From Anaerolineales bacterium (lineage in GTDB: Bacteria; Chloroflexota; Anaerolineae; Anaerolineales; UBA11657), in assembly GCA_022450585.1 (NCBI GenBank), contig JAKUPR010000011.1, positions 1-40,604 of the forward strand: DNA of 40,604 bases. Reading direction: 5' to 3'. The notes beneath the pieces were generated by a model. The model saw only the letters and a list, made by a program, of their open reading frames with translations. It ran no database searches and was not told the origin of the DNA. Below, piece after piece: positions 1 through 15,551 of the stretch (the first letter of the stretch is position 1; each line of letters begins with the position of its first letter). Both the position numbers and the translations under genes were made by a program.

Positions 1-458
1 TTAAGAGGCCACACTAGAATTGCTGCGGTCATCGCCGCCGGCAGCGGTCGCCTCAGCAGTGCTGGCAGACCACCCATGTAATCCTGATGCTGCAGAAACG
101 AAATCACTCCAGCCAGAAGCGACCATTCCAAAACTAGAAACAAGTGCGGCCCTTTCAAAACAGCATTTGAAAAACCACCAACAAGTGCAAGTACCACAGC
201 AGAATTACCACCCCACCACCCAGCGGCCAGTACTATAGGCACAAATGACAATATAGAGATTTGTACAGGCCCAAGTGGACCAATCGGGATCAGTTTATCG
301 TCAACTGGTACGGAAAAAATGGGGGTGACGTTGACCGCCACTAAGAACACTAGCAATAGCCAATGCCCTCGCCGAGCTGCTGTGCTGAGCTCTCGCCATC
401 CACGCCTACGCCGGTATAAGGAAAATGCCACCACCAAGATACCGAAGAACAGAACCAT
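1..458 (-). CDS. Partial integral membrane protein, C-terminal end outside window
   Basis: Not in the supplied ORF track (no stop inside window). The minus frame is open from ATG at 458 to the edge and reads MVLFFGILVVAFSLYRRRRGWRELSTAARRGHWLLLVFLVAVNVTPIFSVPVDDKLIPIGPLGPVQISILSFVPIVLAAGWWGGNSAVVLALVGG..., with several hydrophobic segments. The frame stays open upstream to a TAG near 580, so a non-ATG start is possible. Confidence 0.6.
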   Translation of the reverse strand, partial: MVLFFGILVVAFSLYRRRRGWRELSTAARRGHWLLLVFLVAVNVTPIFSVPVDDKLIPIGPLGPVQISILSFVPIVLAAGWWGGNSAVVLALVGGFSNAVLKGPHLFLVLEWSLLAGVISFLQHQDYMGGLPALLRRPLPAAMTAAILVWPL

Positions 459-682
459 TGTCCCCGGCCACCATGACGGCAAATGCAATTGCCTGTACAA
501 GTTCACAAACGGGATATCCACAACCGTTACGACCTTACTGTTTTCCGGACCTATACCGCAAAGCGTACGTAAATCGCCAACAACACTCTAGGATTATAGC
601 ATTCGTGCATCTGGGAGAGCCGCATTCATATGTGATAAACAATGTCTCCACCCCAGACACAAGCATAGATAAATAACTTATC

Positions 683-711
683 TTGCCTACCACATAACCG
701 TGTGCTAGACT
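683..711 (+). promoter_or_regulatory. Candidate sigma70-type promoter TTGCCT-17-TAGACT
   Basis: TTGCCT 683-688, 17-nt spacer, TAGACT 706-711; an ATG follows at 721. Confidence 0.35.
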
Positions 712-720
712 TTCTTAGTA

Positions 721-852
721 ATGTCTACCATCAATGTGCCAGATGAAGTTCAGGTGAATTTTGGAGGAAACCATGCCATGACCTGTACTAGCACAGATAT
801 TCTCGGAAAACCCATTTTATCAACAGTGAAGCCAAGCAACGCATCAAGTTAG
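721..852 (+). CDS. Short ORF (43 aa), possibly frameshifted or decayed
   Basis: MSTINVPDEVQVNFGGNHAMTCTSTDILGKPILSTVKPSNASS*; a shifted frame continues to 928. Sits just downstream of a promoter-like sequence. Confidence 0.25.
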   Translation: MSTINVPDEVQVNFGGNHAMTCTSTDILGKPILSTVKPSNASS

Positions 853-961
853 GGGGGCAGGAAAATCAGAAGAAGCATTGAAAGCTACTGCCGGAGTATT
901 CCCTGACCATGCTCAGAATCCTGCATAGGCGAAAGACAAAACATGAGCTCATAGAAAATAC

Positions 962-1717
962 ATGGCAACCGTCACTATTCTAGGCTGTGCACATTCCATC
1001 CCGGACGACAATCACGATGTCAGCCATTTCGCCGTACACGCAGAGAACAACGGCATACTGGTCGACTCCGGTACCAATCCCACCGTGCGGCTAGCGAAGG
1101 CGGGAATTGCATACGATTCTATAAGTGACTTAATTCTTACTCACTTTCACCCCGATCACATCACTGGCGCCCCACTGATGCTTATGAACATGTGGTTGCT
1201 CGGCCGCGAGAAACCTCTGCACATCCACGCACTCAGGCATTGTTTGCAAAGATTCAATCAATTAATGAATGCATATGATTGGCAGGATTGGCCTGGCTTG
1301 TTCGAAGTAAATTTACATGAGATTGAACCTTACGAACGGGCGCCGGTACTGACAAATGCTGATTTCGCAGTCGTCGCATCACCAGGTGACCACATGATAC
1401 CAGTCATCGGGTTACAAATCACAGACAAATCCAGTGGTCGCATACTTGCGTATTCCTCTGATACAGCTCCGTGCGATTCCATATTACGACTCGCTGCAGG
1501 CGCAGATATACTGCTCCATGAAGCTACTAATACAGGAATCGGACACAGCAGCGCAGCGCAGGCTGGAGAATTAGCATCTCGAGCACTCGTAGGAACTCTA
1601 TATCTCATCCACTACCGAGCAGGAAACACAGAAGAATCGAACCTTCTATCTGAGGCCCAAAGTCAATTCAATGGACCGGTCAAACTGGCGCGTGATTTTA
1701 TGACAATCGAGCTGTAA
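962..1717 (+). CDS. Metallo-beta-lactamase fold hydrolase (RNase Z-like)
   Basis: LILTHFHPDHITG (HxHxDH motif), GDH and later YLIHYRAG histidines; 251 aa. Confidence 0.85.
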   Translation: MATVTILGCAHSIPDDNHDVSHFAVHAENNGILVDSGTNPTVRLAKAGIAYDSISDLILTHFHPDHITGAPLMLMNMWLLGREKPLHIHALRHCLQRFNQLMNAYDWQDWPGLFEVNLHEIEPYERAPVLTNADFAVVASPGDHMIPVIGLQITDKSSGRILAYSSDTAPCDSILRLAAGADILLHEATNTGIGHSSAAQAGELASRALVGTLYLIHYRAGNTEESNLLSEAQSQFNGPVKLARDFMTIEL

Positions 1718-4885: not shown

Positions 4886-7438
4886 GTGAAAACAAACAAA
4901 GGCCTCATAGCCAGACTGATGCCCGTTGCTCTGACCATGATTGCATGCGCCAGTACTACGCCTGCAACTTTTACAGCACCGCAGCATACGTTAGCATCAG
5001 ATAGCGATATGTCGCTTATCATAGAGCCAACTATTAACTTGCCTGCATCCGCGCGGACACCATCCCTGACACTCACAGAACGTCACCCGAGAGAACTGGG
5101 AGACAAAGAACCGGTCAAAGTGACCGGAAGCGTAGAAATAACTTTCCCGCTATTTGACAATTATCTAGTAGAACCATACGTAATGCTAGAAGATGAAAGT
5201 GGATTCGTGGAACGAGATTTCGATTTCACAATGCCTAGAGAAAATCAGGTGATTGGACCGCTAACGCGCAGCGACGAAAATACGTGGAAATATGTACTAC
5301 ATCTCCCAGTCATTCCTCCAGGTCGTCTAGTTGATGTGGACAATAACGGGAAGATAGACAGAGGCGTTCGTGTTTTAGCCATAGCTGTGCAAGCCAACGT
5401 TGTCGGAGACCCTTTTCTGGGAGAGAATGAATTCCGCGGTTGGTCCAGTGTATGGACTTCGGCACGCATAGACCCCGAAAACCATGATGAAATCTCGGGA
5501 GGGTTTCTCATAGTATGGGCCCCAGATGCAGAGCAAGCTTTTCCAATCGATTTCGGATCAGACGGGTTGCTGTTCACCTCTGACGATTCCACTTCTACAC
5601 TGAAACCAGGGTATACAATTGTCGATCTCAACAATACACCCTTTACCTTTAGCAAAGAAATTGCTCCCGAAATAGAACTGTATGAAGGTGATGTATCCGT
5701 TACCAACTATACTGAGATGGGTTACAGTGAGGCTTTTGAATCTCTCTGGAGCAAGGCATCGGTAGAATACCCCTTTACCCAATTGAAAAGCATCAATTGG
5801 CAGGATTTATATGAGCGATTCTCACCGAGGGTAGCCGCAGCACAATCCGCGGCCAACCACCAAGAATGCTTTTTGACCATGAGAGACTTTGCCATGAGTA
5901 TACCCGATGGACATGGAGGCCTAATTGGTGACGACGGCGGTTTTTTCCAGAGAAATACTGGGGGCGGAGCAGGACTAATTATGACCGAGCTCAGCGACGG
6001 ACGTGTGCTCGTTAGCTACCTTACTTCTGGCGGCGCCGCAGAAGAAGCTGGTATACAACTTCGGGACGAAATCATAGCAGTGAACGGAAAACCGGTCAAA
6101 GAAGCAGTGGCAGCAGTCACCCCGTGGAATGGGCCTTTTTCCGCACCACATGTACAAAGACTGGACCAGTATCGGTATTTGACGCGTGGAAAGGTGGGGA
6201 CAAACATAGATGTAAGCTGGAGACATACTAGTGGTAAAGAGAAGCAGGCCACATTGATATTACCTCCCGAGCAAGCCAGTCTGGCTGCCAGCTCTCTCTA
6301 CGCCGATATTGACCGCAACGCTCCGCCAGTGGAGTATGAGATCATAGAAGACTATGGATTGGGATACGTACGCATTTGGTCCCTATCGGACGACCTGAAC
6401 CTTACCATTCGTCTTTTCAAGCGCGCTGTAGAACTATTCTCCGAACGCAAATTGCCTGGGATGATACTAGACATGCGTCATAATCTAGGCGGTTCACCTA
6501 TGGGTACTGGACTGGCCGCATATTTCACCTCAGAGGAATTAGAGGTAATGCGTGGGTATTATTATAGCGAACGACTGGAACAATTCGACACGCACGGACC
6601 ACCAGACACTATTGAACCAGATGCCAAACTGCAGTTTAAAGGACGGATAGCAGTTCTTATCAGTCCAGCTTGCGCCAGCGCCTGTGAAAATGTAGCATGG
6701 GTTTTCAGCCAGCTGCCACAGGTGACAGTGCTAGGACATTATCCTAGCAACGGCATTATGGGTGAGGTCGGTCGTGGGCAATACAAGCTTCCGGGAGAAA
6801 TCTCCTTTCAAATTCCCACTGGAATGGACCTTGACATGCATGGCAACATTATCGTGGAAGGTCTTGGAGTGCAGCCTGATGTACTTGTGCCGGTAACCGA
6901 AAAGACACTGTTCAGCGAGAAAGACGATCTCCTTAACCATGCAATCGAGATGCTGCTGCAACCCACAGTATCTGGAGTGCAACCATCTGGACCAGCAACT
7001 ATGATGGACCCTGCCGATACCCACGCGTCCCTACAGCAGACACCGATCCTTGAGCAGCTGGCTTTCGAAGAATATAACAATGTTGGGCGCACCGGCGAGC
7101 AATATACTTATACAGTGCACCTAAGTGGTTCCGAGAAGGTTATCTGGATGCACAAATGGTGTGCTGCCACTAAGGCATTGGCAGTAAGCAATCTACGGGA
7201 CATGACAATCAACTTCAGCATGAACGATCAGCCAATTCCGAGAAAAAAGTTTTTGGCACTAGAGGGTGAATACAACGGTCAGTACTGTTATTATCATCTG
7301 ACAGGACTCGTAGATTGGCCAATGGGCGAGCACCAGCTGGACATCGAAGTGACTTTCAGGCAGGAAATCGACAACGGATTCCGAGACTACAAAGCAGGAA
7401 CGCACAGGTTCGAGTACCGAGTTTACGTGGACGAATGA
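4886..7438 (+). CDS. PDZ-containing S41-family (tricorn-like) peptidase, probable lipoprotein
   Basis: GTG start; lipobox-like ALTMIAC; PDZ core (GGGAGLIMTELSDGRVLVSYLTSGGAAEEAGIQLRDEIIAVNGKPV); DGHGG; SPACASACENVAW with a Ser at the S41 nucleophile position. Confidence 0.75.
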   Translation: MKTNKGLIARLMPVALTMIACASTTPATFTAPQHTLASDSDMSLIIEPTINLPASARTPSLTLTERHPRELGDKEPVKVTGSVEITFPLFDNYLVEPYVMLEDESGFVERDFDFTMPRENQVIGPLTRSDENTWKYVLHLPVIPPGRLVDVDNNGKIDRGVRVLAIAVQANVVGDPFLGENEFRGWSSVWTSARIDPENHDEISGGFLIVWAPDAEQAFPIDFGSDGLLFTSDDSTSTLKPGYTIVDLNNTPFTFSKEIAPEIELYEGDVSVTNYTEMGYSEAFESLWSKASVEYPFTQLKSINWQDLYERFSPRVAAAQSAANHQECFLTMRDFAMSIPDGHGGLIGDDGGFFQRNTGGGAGLIMTELSDGRVLVSYLTSGGAAEEAGIQLRDEIIAVNGKPVKEAVAAVTPWNGPFSAPHVQRLDQYRYLTRGKVGTNIDVSWRHTSGKEKQATLILPPEQASLAASSLYADIDRNAPPVEYEIIEDYGLGYVRIWSLSDDLNLTIRLFKRAVELFSERKLPGMILDMRHNLGGSPMGTGLAAYFTSEELEVMRGYYYSERLEQFDTHGPPDTIEPDAKLQFKGRIAVLISPACASACENVAWVFSQLPQVTVLGHYPSNGIMGEVGRGQYKLPGEISFQIPTGMDLDMHGNIIVEGLGVQPDVLVPVTEKTLFSEKDDLLNHAIEMLLQPTVSGVQPSGPATMMDPADTHASLQQTPILEQLAFEEYNNVGRTGEQYTYTVHLSGSEKVIWMHKWCAATKALAVSNLRDMTINFSMNDQPIPRKKFLALEGEYNGQYCYYHLTGLVDWPMGEHQLDIEVTFRQEIDNGFRDYKAGTHRFEYRVYVDE

Positions 7439-9616: not shown

Positions 9617-10252
9617 TTATTTCCTGTCAAGAAAACCAAAACTCACGCCCCATATACCAGTTACAAATATCAGACTGCAAGCTGCCAGTGTCACGTACCA
9701 ACCCGGACCGATTGGAGGTAGAGAACCGTAGAGATCCCCAACCAGAGGCCGCACTAGCAGCAACCCCCGCAACGCTCTCTCGCCCAGCATAGCAGCTGCG
9801 ACACCCTGAACCAGACCTAGCCAGTACCAATCAGCCCAGCGCCAAGAAACTGCAGCCGCCACAATACTCGCCACTAGCAGTAGGAGATGTGCCTGAACAG
9901 AGGTATCTGTCCGGTACCACACAATTGCCGGATACGCGGGCAGCAGCATGAGCAATCCTAATACTACAGGTAACAAGAGCCAAATGCGCAAGCCACCTCT
10001 GGAGACATTTCGGGCCGTCAGCACGACCGCCAAAGCCAATAGCGCAAGAAAATGCATCCTACCCACTGGCAGGCTTCCAGACTGAACCTGGGGCAGCAAT
10101 GTTACCCAATCAGAGAGGTCGTAAGCTCCCATACTGAGCGCCGCAGCGCGGTGCGGAACCCACGGCAGAAAATATCCTAGCCAGAGTAGGAAAATGCCAA
10201 TCGAGTTCAGCGCCGAGACGAGCAGCGGCAACTTTAACACCGAGCTTGCCAT
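9617..10252 (-). CDS. Multi-pass membrane protein of unknown function
   Basis: 211 aa with many hydrophobic helices (FLALLALAVVLTARNV, LLLVASIVAAAVSW, WYVTLAACSLIFVTGIW). Confidence 0.6.
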   Translation of the reverse strand: MASSVLKLPLLVSALNSIGIFLLWLGYFLPWVPHRAAALSMGAYDLSDWVTLLPQVQSGSLPVGRMHFLALLALAVVLTARNVSRGGLRIWLLLPVVLGLLMLLPAYPAIVWYRTDTSVQAHLLLLVASIVAAAVSWRWADWYWLGLVQGVAAAMLGERALRGLLLVRPLVGDLYGSLPPIGPGWYVTLAACSLIFVTGIWGVSFGFLDRK

Positions 10253-10311: not shown

Positions 10312-12162
10312 CTAATAGAACGCTGTGCGCAACACAGGCTGAAATAATTCCTTCTTATGGGCACATACGAGATCCAGAGAGCATGAGCTGCAATCCGGTA
10401 CATGCATCTCCGGACAACGCCGTCTGGCATTGAAAAAGAACCAGTCTACCGCTGCCATACTTTTTCCAGAAAGTTCCACCAGTTGCATAAGCGCATCATG
10501 GGAAGCACGACGGATTGCCCACTCATCTGCAGCAGGAATCAACCGTCGCTCGACGAGAGATCGACGCAAACTTGTATCCAAAACATCAACGAGACCAACA
10601 CGTAAGCAGGATCGCATCAGATGATAATCAATAATCGGGGGCAAACTCTCATCTGCACCAATACGCAGGAATTTTTCCGGGCGCTCACTTAGAATCAGTG
10701 CTAGCAGCACCGACTTCTTACGCAACACGTCCTCTTTGTATCCACCAATATGGTCAAGCCCGGTTAAGAACGAAAGCAGCGGCTTATGGCTGCAGTTAGC
10801 TCTAGCCACAATGTCCGACGGCGATAGACCTATTGATAACATGTCGTACCCATATGCGCGCGCTTGCTGCAGTCGCATCCGGCGCGCCGGCATCGGATCA
10901 GTGCCATCATCAGCACGCAATATGATACGAAGCCTTTTGGATGTCATACTGTACTGACCTGTCGACGAAAATAATTCGGGCGTATCTGTATACGCACGCA
11001 TCATAGCATGCCACAAATAATCAGATCCTTTGCGATGTGCACCATCTATAGGTGCAAGCAGGGGACGCCAGTAACGACCGGACCGCGCCTGCCAGAAACC
11101 GAACTGTTGTAAAGTCGCCGCGAAGAAAAATTCCAGTGCACCAGAGGCACCCACCTTCGGAAAACCCGGTCCGACAAAAGCGAATGGGTGTACATTCTCC
11201 ATACCTGCCAGAAGCTCAGCTACGGCAGATATCCGCTCTTGACACAGTGAGACACGTCGATCCATTTGTGGCCCGGGCAATATTCCAGAGTTCCAAAGCG
11301 CACGTGGTCCCACCGCTGTGACTACCTGCGCCGCTACGAATTGGGCCGCAGAAGCTGCGCGGAGCGGATGGTCTCCATTCGCCAGACGAGCCAACGTGGC
11401 CCCACAAAAAGCGTCACCAGCACCGGTCGGATCAAGTTCAGACGCCGGTTCCACAGGGATTAACGTCTCATGCTGACCCTGCCAAACACGTACGCCCCTG
11501 TGACCAAAAGTAACAAATAGAAGTTTGCCCGACTCGGCTTTCACGGCGTCCAAACTCCCGAACATGCCTAAGGCCTCGTGCTCATTCATAAAGAAAATAT
11601 CTGCCTTCTGAATAAGTCTATGCACAGCCACTGTTTCATGCCGGACAACACGTCCATACGTCCCCACAGAGATCAAACGCGCACCACGTTGACGACACGA
11701 ATCGAGGAATTCCAATTGACGCCAAGCACTACTCAGTGCAGCTATGTGCACTAGCTCGCATCCAGAAAGATCCGCGGGCAAATCTCCGGGTCTAAGTTGT
11801 GACTCAGAACCCCACTCTGCCGAGTCCAGGGTGGCTACACCTGCACCATGATGAGTAATCTCAAAATGCGGTAAACGTAGAGGGCTAACTTTTGGGCCGA
11901 ACCAAGTTATCCGTTTTGCTGCAGCCTGCAGCGCCTCGGGCATCGGATGCGGCAGTGGCGCAAACATGGCAACCTGTGCTCCCACCCGATGTGCAGCTGC
12001 CGCCGTGTACATTCCCGCACCACCAGCAGAACGTTCAGTCCGACCCCTAAAATGCAGCTGGTCCAGCGACGCCCCACCGACTACTAGCACGTCAGCTGTG
12101 AGACGCCGAGCGCCTACGAATTCAGGGCCCACACTATTCGTAACCCCTCGAGCGTCAGCCAC
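10312..12162 (-). CDS. Fusion protein: PfkB/ribokinase-family kinase plus C-terminal Cys4 (HhH-glycosylase-like) domain
   Basis: N-terminal VLVVGGASLDQLHF...GGAGMYTAAAAHRVGA and DPTGAGDAFCGATLA (PfkB signature 2). C-terminal ~300 aa ends CPEMHVPDCSSCSLDLVC (C-x7-C-x2-C-x5-C). GTG start at 12162 overlaps coaX; a GTG at 12132 is also possible. Confidence 0.8.
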   Translation of the reverse strand: MADARGVTNSVGPEFVGARRLTADVLVVGGASLDQLHFRGRTERSAGGAGMYTAAAAHRVGAQVAMFAPLPHPMPEALQAAAKRITWFGPKVSPLRLPHFEITHHGAGVATLDSAEWGSESQLRPGDLPADLSGCELVHIAALSSAWRQLEFLDSCRQRGARLISVGTYGRVVRHETVAVHRLIQKADIFFMNEHEALGMFGSLDAVKAESGKLLFVTFGHRGVRVWQGQHETLIPVEPASELDPTGAGDAFCGATLARLANGDHPLRAASAAQFVAAQVVTAVGPRALWNSGILPGPQMDRRVSLCQERISAVAELLAGMENVHPFAFVGPGFPKVGASGALEFFFAATLQQFGFWQARSGRYWRPLLAPIDGAHRKGSDYLWHAMMRAYTDTPELFSSTGQYSMTSKRLRIILRADDGTDPMPARRMRLQQARAYGYDMLSIGLSPSDIVARANCSHKPLLSFLTGLDHIGGYKEDVLRKKSVLLALILSERPEKFLRIGADESLPPIIDYHLMRSCLRVGLVDVLDTSLRRSLVERRLIPAADEWAIRRASHDALMQLVELSGKSMAAVDWFFFNARRRCPEMHVPDCSSCSLDLVCAHKKELFQPVLRTAFY

Positions 12163-12878
12163 GGAGCCACAACCTGAATGACACTAGTTTCACGCGCCAC
12201 CGTCTCTGCTAATCCTCCAGTACCAATTACCTGCATCTCTGGACCGAGCTCTGCGCCAAAACGCTCCACCATTCCCTCCACAAGACCCGCATAACCATAA
12301 AGCAGTCCAGATTGAATAGCATTGGGTGTGTTACGACCAATAGCAGCGGGCGGCGGCACCAAGTCAACACGCGGCAATTTAGCTGCTCGCTGGAAGAGTG
12401 CATCCGCAGCAATTTCTATTCCAGGTGCAATAGCACCTCCCAAGTATTCTCCCGCCGCGGAAACAGCATCGAAGGTTGTAGCTGTGCCGAAATCGACAAT
12501 GCATGCTGGACATCCATATAGCGAACGCGCAGCAGCAGCATCCACCACACGGTCTGCACCCACCTGTCGAGGGTCATCGTAACGTATGGGCACACCGGTC
12601 TTCACGCCAGCATCCACCACCAAGGGCTCCTGATGCAAATAATCCCTGCAAATATGTAGAAAAACACCGGTCAGAGGCGGCACTACTGAGGCTATAGCCA
12701 CGGCAGCAATATCATCTCTAGAAATACTCCCATGCTGAAAAAATCCGAGCAACTGCAAACCATATTCGTCACCAGTACGACCACGTGCGGTTTCCATACG
12801 CCATCGAGGTCCAAGGGTCTCTCCGGTGAAGACACCCACAGTGATATGTGTGTTACCAATGTCTATTGCCAAAAACAT
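12114..12878 (-). CDS. coaX: Type III pantothenate kinase
   Basis: MFLAIDIGNTHITVGVF; VVDAGVKTGVPIRYDDPRQVGADRVVDAAAARSLYG; IVDFGTATTFDAVS; GGAIAPGIEI. Confidence 0.95.
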   Translation of the reverse strand: MFLAIDIGNTHITVGVFTGETLGPRWRMETARGRTGDEYGLQLLGFFQHGSISRDDIAAVAIASVVPPLTGVFLHICRDYLHQEPLVVDAGVKTGVPIRYDDPRQVGADRVVDAAAARSLYGCPACIVDFGTATTFDAVSAAGEYLGGAIAPGIEIAADALFQRAAKLPRVDLVPPPAAIGRNTPNAIQSGLLYGYAGLVEGMVERFGAELGPEMQVIGTGGLAETVARETSVIQVVAPWLTLEGLRIVWALNS

Positions 12879-12890
12879 AATTGCTCCTTT

Positions 12891-13730
12891 TTAAGTCTCG
12901 CCCAGTACCATATTGTCAATCAGAACAACCTGACCAATGCACACGGCCAGACTGGCCAATACTTGCTCCGGCAGCTGCCTCAAATCCTGCAGTGTCTCTA
13001 CCTCTGTAATAGCTATATAACGAGCATCTGCTAATGGCTCAGTCGCAACTACATCCGACATCAGACCACACAGCTTATCTCCGTCCCGCTGTCCCTCTGC
13101 AAATGCTACGCTAGCAGCACTCAGTGCACGAAACAAAACAGTGGATGCCTGGCGCTGGTCCACACTCAAACGTGCATTGCGAGAGGAAAGTGCCAAACCA
13201 TCCGACTCCCGTACCGTTGGGCATGTTACCACCTCCACAGGAAAGCCAAGATCAGCCACAAGCCGACGCACCACGCAGACCTGCTGCGCATCTTTCTGTC
13301 CGAAATAGGCACGATCAGGCCTAAATGCAATAAGAAGCTTAGAAACTATCGTGGTCACCCCACGCATGTGCCCAGGACGACGCCCACCTTCCAGGCCACT
13401 CGTGAGTTGATTCACAGTCACGTATGTCTGATACCCATGCGGATACATCTCCGATCTGTCTGGTGCCCAAACCAAGTCAACGTTGTGAGTATCCAACAAA
13501 TCCAAATCCCGCTCGAGGTCACGCGGGTAATCGTCTAAATCATCGACCGACTCGAACTGAGCTGGGTTGACGAAAATGCTTGCAGCAACAAACTCATTCT
13601 CAGCGCGAGCAGACTGCACCAACGAGAGATGACCGCGATGCAAATATCCCATTGTAGGAACCAAACCAAGTGACCCTGTGAATGTAGCCCGTGCTGATCG
13701 TAATTCTAATAGCGTCTTGACTATCTTCAT
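12891..13730 (-). CDS. panC: Pantothenate synthetase
   Basis: VPTMGYLHRGHLSLVQ, SIFVNPAQF, YFGQKDAQQ, TVRESDGLALSSRNARL. Confidence 0.97.
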   Translation of the reverse strand: MKIVKTLLELRSARATFTGSLGLVPTMGYLHRGHLSLVQSARAENEFVAASIFVNPAQFESVDDLDDYPRDLERDLDLLDTHNVDLVWAPDRSEMYPHGYQTYVTVNQLTSGLEGGRRPGHMRGVTTIVSKLLIAFRPDRAYFGQKDAQQVCVVRRLVADLGFPVEVVTCPTVRESDGLALSSRNARLSVDQRQASTVLFRALSAASVAFAEGQRDGDKLCGLMSDVVATEPLADARYIAITEVETLQDLRQLPEQVLASLAVCIGQVVLIDNMVLGET

Positions 13731-13737
13731 GATTCAT

Positions 13738-14649
13738 TTATTGGCTGCGCGCAGCACGCACCAACTTGCAGAGCATGTAGTTCACTGGAGCAGGCACTCC
13801 ATGCAGCGCGGCCTCACGCACTATGGCACAATTTATCGACTCTATTTCGGTTAGTTCTCCACGACGCATATCTTGCAACATTGACGAATAATTACTAGCC
13901 GTCGCCTGAGCAACCATTATTACCTGTTCAGAAACGTCAAATGGAATCTCAATCCCCAAGGCAGCGGCTACGGCCTCGGTCTCTTCGGCCGCAGCAATCA
14001 TCAGTCCACGTGCATCCGGGCGGGAGAGCAGCTCACCATTAGTGATATCAAGCAGTGCGGTCAACGCATTGATGCCAGAGCTGACAGCAAGTTTTCCCCA
14101 GAGCACTGGTTCCAACTCACAGGTCAAAATAGTCGGAAAACCAGCCGTCTCAAACAAACCCGCCAGGCCTTGCAAGCGCTCGTCCATGCACTCCCGTAGC
14201 GCTAGGTAAGTGTCCCCTCCACCACTGTAACGCACATGGCCGGGAGACAGTAGAGCCGCTCCCTGCGTCGTTACGCCGGCAACCGCACGTTTCACACCCA
14301 CTCTTTCTTCCAATACCTCCAAGTTACCCAGTCCGTTCTGAAGCGTAACAACTATCCCATCGGGAGCAAGAACTAACGATGCCAAGCTGGCAGCCCGTTC
14401 GGTCTGCCAGCTTTTTACCAGCAGCAACGCCACCGACGCGGGTGCAAATTGCTGTGGATCCTCGCCAACACTCACCTGAACCGTATCTACAATGTCGTTA
14501 GCTTCAATACAGATTCCTCTTTTACTTATTGCTTCCATGCTCTGAAGCCAACTTCCCAGAAGACAGACATCAGAATGTGGTGCCAACCGCGCACCAAAAA
14601 GACAGGCCATCGCACCGGTGCCAATGATCGCAACACGCATATATGCCAA
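13738..14649 (-). CDS. panE: 2-dehydropantoate 2-reductase
   Basis: MRVAIIGTGAMACLFGARL, LLLVKSWQT, TLQNGLGNLE, VLWGKLAVSSGINALTAL. A start at 14640 (MRVAIIG) is also possible. Confidence 0.93.
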   Translation of the reverse strand: MAYMRVAIIGTGAMACLFGARLAPHSDVCLLGSWLQSMEAISKRGICIEANDIVDTVQVSVGEDPQQFAPASVALLLVKSWQTERAASLASLVLAPDGIVVTLQNGLGNLEVLEERVGVKRAVAGVTTQGAALLSPGHVRYSGGGDTYLALRECMDERLQGLAGLFETAGFPTILTCELEPVLWGKLAVSSGINALTALLDITNGELLSRPDARGLMIAAAEETEAVAAALGIEIPFDVSEQVIMVAQATASNYSSMLQDMRRGELTEIESINCAIVREAALHGVPAPVNYMLCKLVRAARSQ

Positions 14650-14651
14650 CC

Positions 14652-15551
14652 TTAGGAGTGCTTGCCGCTAGGCCGCAGGTCTTCTAGACTATCTATAAAC
14701 GTCTGCCATTCATCGTCCGGTATACCAAATGTATGTTCTGCACCTGGAAAATCACGCCGTCCGACTTCATCCCGATACCTCTCAAAAGCATTTAACATCT
14801 CCACGCGCAAATTGGAGTATTTTTTTACGAACCGGGGCGTGAAGCGATCAAAAAGACCTAGTAAATCGTTGCTAACCAACACCTGACCGTCACAGCCAGA
14901 ACCTGCACCGATTCCAATTGTGGGAACATTCAACCACTCGGAGATAAGCGTGGCCACCCGACCCGGAACCGCTTCTAGCACAATCGCAAAACACCCAGCT
15001 TTCTCTAGCGCAATAGCATCATCCAGAAGCGCACGCGCTGTGTTCGAGCTGCGACCCTGAACTCGGAATCCGCCCAGCTGATGTATTGCTTGTGGTGTCA
15101 ATCCAATATGACCCATTACTGGAATACCGGCTTCCACAATGGCACGCACGGTGGAAGCCATGCGACGACCACCTTCAAGCTTTACGCTGTCCATACCAGC
15201 ATCACTCAGAAATCTCCCCGCATTGCGCACAGCCTCAGATACATCCACCTGATATGAGAGAAAAGGCATGTCTCCGGTCATGAAAGCCCGCTTAGAGCCA
15301 CGCGCCACCGCGCGGCAATGATGCAACATTTCGTCCATTGTCACTGGAAGTGTGTTTTCATACCCTAGAACTACCATGGCCAATGAATCCCCAACCAAGA
15401 TTAGATCAACCCCAGCTGCATCAGCCACGCGCGCAGTAGGATAATCATATGCAGTCACCGCAACAATCGGATCACTGCAGTCTTTTTTATCTTGCAATGT
15501 TGCCAAGGAAATCTTGCTATTCGATGAATCGGATGGCACTTGTTGGCTCAC
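14652..15551 (-). CDS. panB: 3-methyl-2-oxobutanoate hydroxymethyltransferase
   Basis: VAVTAYDYPTARVADAAGVDLILVGDSLAMVVLGYENTLPVTMDEMLHH, VMGHIGLTPQ, PTIGIGAGSGCDGQVLV; GTG start with GGAGGAG SD. Confidence 0.97.
   Translation of the reverse strand: MSQQVPSDSSNSKISLATLQDKKDCSDPIVAVTAYDYPTARVADAAGVDLILVGDSLAMVVLGYENTLPVTMDEMLHHCRAVARGSKRAFMTGDMPFLSYQVDVSEAVRNAGRFLSDAGMDSVKLEGGRRMASTVRAIVEAGIPVMGHIGLTPQAIHQLGGFRVQGRSSNTARALLDDAIALEKAGCFAIVLEAVPGRVATLISEWLNVPTIGIGAGSGCDGQVLVSNDLLGLFDRFTPRFVKKYSNLRVEMLNAFERYRDEVGRRDFPGAEHTFGIPDDEWQTFIDSLEDLRPSGKHS

Follow-up and report, generated by a model that had tools for sequence, protein, structure and literature searches.

A PfkB kinase joined to a cysteine-bearing Qng1-like domain in Anaerolineales: a probable two-step nucleoside-recycling enzyme

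The window (the whole 40,604-nucleotide stretch of Anaerolineales DNA analysed here) carries on its minus strand a single unbroken frame of 616 aa (10312..12162, GTG start as listed, the start codon being uncertain). As had been claimed from the sequence, this frame joins an N-terminal PfkB kinase to a C-terminal domain of about 320 aa that ends in a C-x7-C-x2-C-x5-C motif, and all the motifs quoted for it are present. The PfkB/ribokinase-fold nucleoside-kinase domain covers residues ~23-290 (11293..12096, minus strand; PF00294, E 6.3e-20) and includes the catalytic motif DPTGAGD at residues 244-250 (11413..11433, minus strand), of which D, T, G, A, G and D are invariant in the kinase alignment. 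Residues ~297-616 (10315..11274, minus strand) were assigned by PF10343, hhalign and Foldseek to the Qng1 superfamily (DUF2419/Q_salvage-like). The full-length AlphaFold2 model has a mean pLDDT of 93.5 and a pTM of 0.93. The gene stands at the end of a pantothenate operon on the same strand, composed of panB, panE and panC (12891..15551; PF02548, PF02558/PF08546 and PF02569) and of coaX, which encodes a type III pantothenate kinase (12114..12878; PF03309, E 5.3e-74). As annotated, coaX overlaps the fusion frame by 49 bp, an overlap that depends on the uncertain start. In the sister genome G001 coaX is also directly upstream of the fusion, so that conservation of the first ~16 fusion residues could come from coaX. 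A 211-aa membrane protein with no Pfam match is encoded directly downstream (9617..10252, minus strand), a position that is conserved across the window's family, whether the neighbouring gene encodes the fusion or the kinase alone.

The fusion is not an assembly artefact, because 72 of the best 80 of 158 relatives keep both domains in one open frame and because these fusions are spread over at least six phyla, among them Chloroflexota, Acidobacteriota, Gemmatimonadota, Myxococcota, Gammaproteobacteria and Neomarinimicrobiota/Fidelibacterota. The 158 relatives of the C-terminal domain were obtained by a scan of genome contigs; the other eight of the best 80 either consist of the C-terminal domain alone or are interrupted by a contig end or a frame break, and homologues covering the whole fusion were found in sister as well as distant genomes. 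The possibility raised with the original prediction, that the fusion would be missing from relatives, is thereby set aside, and the survey of domain architectures proposed along with it found a widespread fusion together with standalone C-terminal domains (G035 and others). The protein family is bacterial and chromosomal. Its distribution is patchy, since the C-terminal domain is plainly present in only 4 of 301 genomes of the window's phylum, one more having a bridging homologue only. In a tree of kinase domains, whose root and deep branches are unsure, three label changes were required between fused and standalone kinases. A single fusion event is possible, because two of the rows labelled as standalone that fall among the fused kinases are explained by a fragment at a contig end and by a broken frame.

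The solved structures closest in sequence to the kinase domain are MJ0406 (2c49, E 1.5e-18) and 3kd6 (E 6.6e-18). A Foldseek search with the full-length model also retrieved these two annotated nucleoside kinases, with a TM score of 0.76 for 3kd6, and matched ribokinases nearly equally well. The domain is therefore nearest to nucleoside kinases, with ribokinases almost as close. It shares DPTGAGD with the MJ0406-type and Chlorobium PfkB nucleoside kinases (2c49, 3kd6, 3b1q), which are its best matches in sequence and in fold, but differs from them by its low identity (~20%) and by being joined to a glycosidase-like domain.

For the C-terminal domain, the only Pfam match of the window's last 320 aa was PF10343 (Q_salvage), which scored 18.1 bits and missed the cut-off of 25. 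The same profile was matched by all 13 members of the first family alignment (best value 2.1e-9), and the relatives from G020 and G035 exceed the cut-off with 32.8 and 32.4 bits. The single domain found no match in the PDB by phmmer, and no NCBIfam family was assigned to it; a family profile retrieved human Qng1 from the PDB (E 3.5e-5). A weak match to T4 internal protein I was rejected. When profiles were compared by hhalign, the domain aligned end to end with canonical Qng1 (24 homologues from the phylum) with an E-value of 2.5e-21. The domain modelled alone by AlphaFold2 (pLDDT 86.7) gave 11 Foldseek matches in the PDB at E<0.001, every one of them Qng1, with TM scores of about 0.75; they include complexes with queuosine-5'-monophosphate. 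EndoIII, AGOG and MutY come after them, at E ~0.01-0.1. The original guess of a domain related to DUF2419 and to DNA glycosylases is thus supported in both parts and in this order by the fold search, with which the profile comparison agrees, and the predicted structure does match glycosylase folds. Together, these results show that the C-terminal domain is a member of the Qng1 (DUF2419/Q_salvage) superfamily, divergent by sequence.

This kinship extends to specific residues. K482 (10717..10719, minus strand) and D512, in an IDYH motif (10627..10629, minus strand), are the equivalents of K199 and D231 of S. thermophilus Qng1, the residues altered in structures 7u5a and 7ulc, and both are invariant in 85 of 85 sequences; by a weak alignment D512 also corresponds to the catalytic Asp of EndoIII. 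The equivalents of Qng1 Y232, E267, R271, R319, T320 and Y323 are invariant or nearly so, the last three lying at the C-terminal end: E547 and R551 of the window protein are invariant in the 85 sequences and R612-T613-x-x-Y616 is nearly so. Thus whole-domain homology, the predicted fold, the K199/D231 pair and the terminal R-T-x-x-Y are common to the window domain and Qng1 (PF10343; 7u91, 7ulc, 7ugk). In contrast, H53, D69, N72, D112, E146, D186, Q202, D207 and H316, near-invariant in Qng1, are replaced or variable in the window-type family, which further differs from Qng1 by its kinase fusion and by a cysteine motif absent from all 25 canonical Qng1 sequences. Since so many Qng1-invariant residues are replaced, the substrate need not resemble that of Qng1, and the replacements suggest that a different base may be recognized.

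Taken together, these features point to a bifunctional nucleoside-recycling enzyme, and we consider it probable that a kinase acts first and a Qng1-like glycosidase second, both the activities and their order being inferred. The N-terminal PfkB domain would phosphorylate the 5'-OH of a ribonucleoside, probably a modified one, at the expense of ATP. The C-terminal hydrolase would then cut the N-glycosidic bond of the resulting nucleoside 5'-monophosphate by means of the Lys482/Asp512 pair, yielding the free base and ribose 5-phosphate, so that the overall path would run from nucleoside to nucleoside 5'-phosphate to base plus ribose 5-phosphate. As the substrate of Qng1, a queuosine-5'-monophosphate N-glycosidase, is a nucleoside 5'-monophosphate, an attached nucleoside kinase would supply it. 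The same logic is known for pseudouridine, where PsuK and PsuG are fused in some eukaryotes and are thought to act in one chain: the PfkB kinase makes the nucleoside 5'-phosphate and the second domain converts it to base and ribose 5-phosphate (PMC9247573). The window protein differs from PsuKG in that its glycosidase belongs to another family (no PsuG-type match was found for the C-terminal domain in Pfam or fold searches), in that the kinase precedes the glycosidase whereas PsuKG has the glycosidase first, and in that the bond cleaved is probably N-C instead of C-C. Gene neighbours in other phyla are in line with nucleoside salvage. A CNT nucleoside transporter adjoins the fusion gene in four Acidobacteriota and three Myxococcota loci, and a PNP_UDP_1 phosphorylase gene is divergent from it in three Gammaproteobacteria; across all loci mostly no shared neighbourhood pattern was found, and these transporters and phosphorylases were seen on reading the immediate neighbours. 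With the fold and profile matches and the wide spread of the fusion, they support the kinase-glycosidase salvage role first proposed for this protein.

The nearest family being Qng1, with a solved complex with queuosine-5'-monophosphate, the nucleoside could be queuosine itself. The protein would then act as a queuosine kinase and a Qng1 that releases queuine, a vitamin-like base derived from tRNA, for insertion into tRNA or return to preQ1; this we regard as possible but doubtful. In its favour, carriers of the fusion from other loci encode QueA in 32 of 33 cases and TGT in 30 of 33, and the window genome has QueA and one TGT. The residues of the latter are of preQ1 type, as are those of all carrier TGTs that are readable at both positions, which have the Cys together with GG[LV][AS][VI]GE, a combination that we take, from general knowledge, to mark preQ1-type enzymes. 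By this rule free queuine would not be inserted by the carriers, which sets them apart from queuine users; the notion that they use queuine was rejected for this reason, and salvage of queuine in the eukaryotic style is unlikely. The unexplained source of preQ1 also speaks for queuosine: neither a convincing QueC nor a QPTR transporter was found in the window genome (G000, 87.5% complete), as in most of its family. Among 61 relatives, QPTR is absent from 9 of 10 fusion carriers versus 11 of the remaining 51 (Fisher p 8e-5); these cases come nearly all from one family, which mainly produces the anticorrelation. That the fusion makes up for missing preQ1 sources is a suggestive idea for the window's family but does not hold in other lineages and was not retained, since QueC occurs in 9, QPTR in 17 and at least one of them in 22 of the 33 other carriers, which would have no need for such salvage. 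An indirect salvage of queuine through a lyase remains conceivable here, a queuine lyase route having been described (PMC11130926). With many Qng1-invariant residues lost as well, the substrate is probably not simply queuosine. Separately, a second TGT with the signature LDDCTH...GGWPLD was observed at L212-L217 (G059, G035, G022, G055, G018 and G031); in G059 and G035 it has a QPTR gene within ~7 kb.

A feature that separates the window-type domain from canonical Qng1 is its Cys4 motif, C583-x7-C591-x2-C594-x5-C600 (10363..10416, minus strand), a probable [4Fe-4S] site of EndoIII type found in 85 of 85 relatives and 0 of 25 canonical Qng1. In shuffled C-terminal domains the same spacing arose in 4 of 100,000 trials. 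A weak local hhalign alignment with EndoIII (probability 7.6%) places IDYH opposite VDTH and brings the four cysteines into register; the motif resembles that of the HhH-GPD enzymes EndoIII, AGOG and MutY (C-x6/7-C-x2-C-x5-C), EndoIII itself having C-x6 and the window protein C-x7. Judging from this motif, the four cysteines would most likely bind a [4Fe-4S] cluster of the EndoIII type that is structural in role. It is a reasonable idea that an ancestral cluster was lost in canonical Qng1. Clustered cysteines near the C-terminus are likewise present in the divergent Qng1-like proteins of L065, L066 and L067. The standalone proteins of L066 (2596-3702, plus strand) and L067 (5347-6429, minus strand), with a cysteine-rich C-terminus, give matches to Q_salvage as well as to AGOG, an 8-oxoguanine glycosylase, and may form a link from Qng1 to the DNA glycosylases. 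L065 encodes two divergent paralogues (407-1549, plus strand; 5651-6862, minus strand) ending in C-x2-C-x11-C-x5-C; they lie on either side of an ABC transporter that has a family 5 solute-binding protein, after which come genes for a GntR-type regulator and an ABC_cobalt-type permease.

Such resemblances raise the question of a base-damage enzyme, acting in DNA or nucleotide-pool repair (for example on 8-oxoguanine or alkylated guanine), with a kinase that prepares damaged nucleosides. The EndoIII-like cysteines, the rank of EndoIII, AGOG and MutY right after Qng1 in the fold search and the double matches of L066 and L067 all fit this role, as does an alkyltransferase-like gene with an MGMT DNA-binding domain directly upstream of the fusion in seven Anaerolineales-type loci, often as a tandem duplicate (L113, L120, L111, L108, L003/G020, L114 and L109). 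We nevertheless judge it unlikely. This neighbour is limited to one group of related genomes, and the fold match to EndoIII is weak (E ~0.01, versus 1e-10 for Qng1) with a non-significant sequence match. The C-terminal domain has neither a Pfam HhH-GPD match nor a helix-hairpin-helix motif of the LPGVGRKTA type, the position of which is occupied by GGYKED-x-L-R-KKS, and a nucleoside kinase would be needless for an enzyme acting on DNA. From its sequence, the domain retains a cysteine motif of EndoIII type and yet is no EndoIII.

The pan locus itself shows that the two domains can be separated. In the window's family the order panB-panE-panC-coaX-kinase-membrane protein is kept, and the kinase is fused in G001. 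In the sister genus g2, the pan operons of G002, G004, G006 and G009 have a kinase without the C-terminal domain, followed by the same membrane protein; in G008 the standalone kinase and the membrane protein are present and only a weak match to coaX was found. Each genome of this genus (G002, G004, G006, G008 and G009) was observed to encode up to two diverged fusion paralogues and a standalone kinase, the latter in the pan operon of at least four. Trees that group the standalone pan-operon kinases with the window kinase were not rejected (p 0.61), pointing to a loss or gain of the C-terminal domain at this site, and the retention of the kinase alone means that the pan locus does not strictly tie one activity to the other. 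This arrangement could be taken to mean that the kinase alone is active and the C-terminal domain a non-catalytic module with a regulatory or structural task, which is however very unlikely: conservation of K482, D512, E547, R551 and, nearly always, R-T-x-x-Y across at least six phyla, and the existence of standalone C-terminal domains, argue for catalysis.

Co-expression with CoA synthesis, originally suggested by the coaX overlap, holds as far as adjacency in the window's family is concerned; among the loci examined outside this family no coaX was found beside the fusion gene, so that the link to CoA is local, and at least four sister-genus kinases occupy the site without the C-terminal domain. 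A role in CoA or pantothenate metabolism, as the conserved operon order might imply, is therefore most improbable, the more so as a Qng1-like domain has no known part in CoA synthesis. The 211-aa membrane protein may be a transporter of whatever substrate the fusion uses. A homologue of it also adjoins the standalone kinase gene found in G055.

Within the kinase-then-glycosidase reading, one possibility, which we place a little short of an even chance, is a separate Fe-S branch of the Qng1 superfamily with its own nucleoside kinase, salvaging or detoxifying a modified nucleoside other than queuosine. Both domains are known; their pairing and the cysteine-bearing Qng1 branch appear to be new, as no description of a kinase-Qng1-like fusion, nor any queuosine kinase, was found in the literature searched, which covered few subscription papers. 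The natural fusion of a kinase to a Qng1-like domain points to a candidate queuosine-kinase family and makes the two-step route testable within one protein. From the invariance of the cysteine motif one can suggest how a nucleotide hydrolase may have evolved out of DNA glycosylases with an Fe-S cluster. Should the substrate be other than queuosine, the protein would stand for a recycling step for a modified nucleoside, so far undescribed, in several environmental phyla, and a non-queuosine Fe-S branch of Qng1 would, if real, represent a new base-recycling pathway linking EndoIII-type DNA glycosylases to Qng1.
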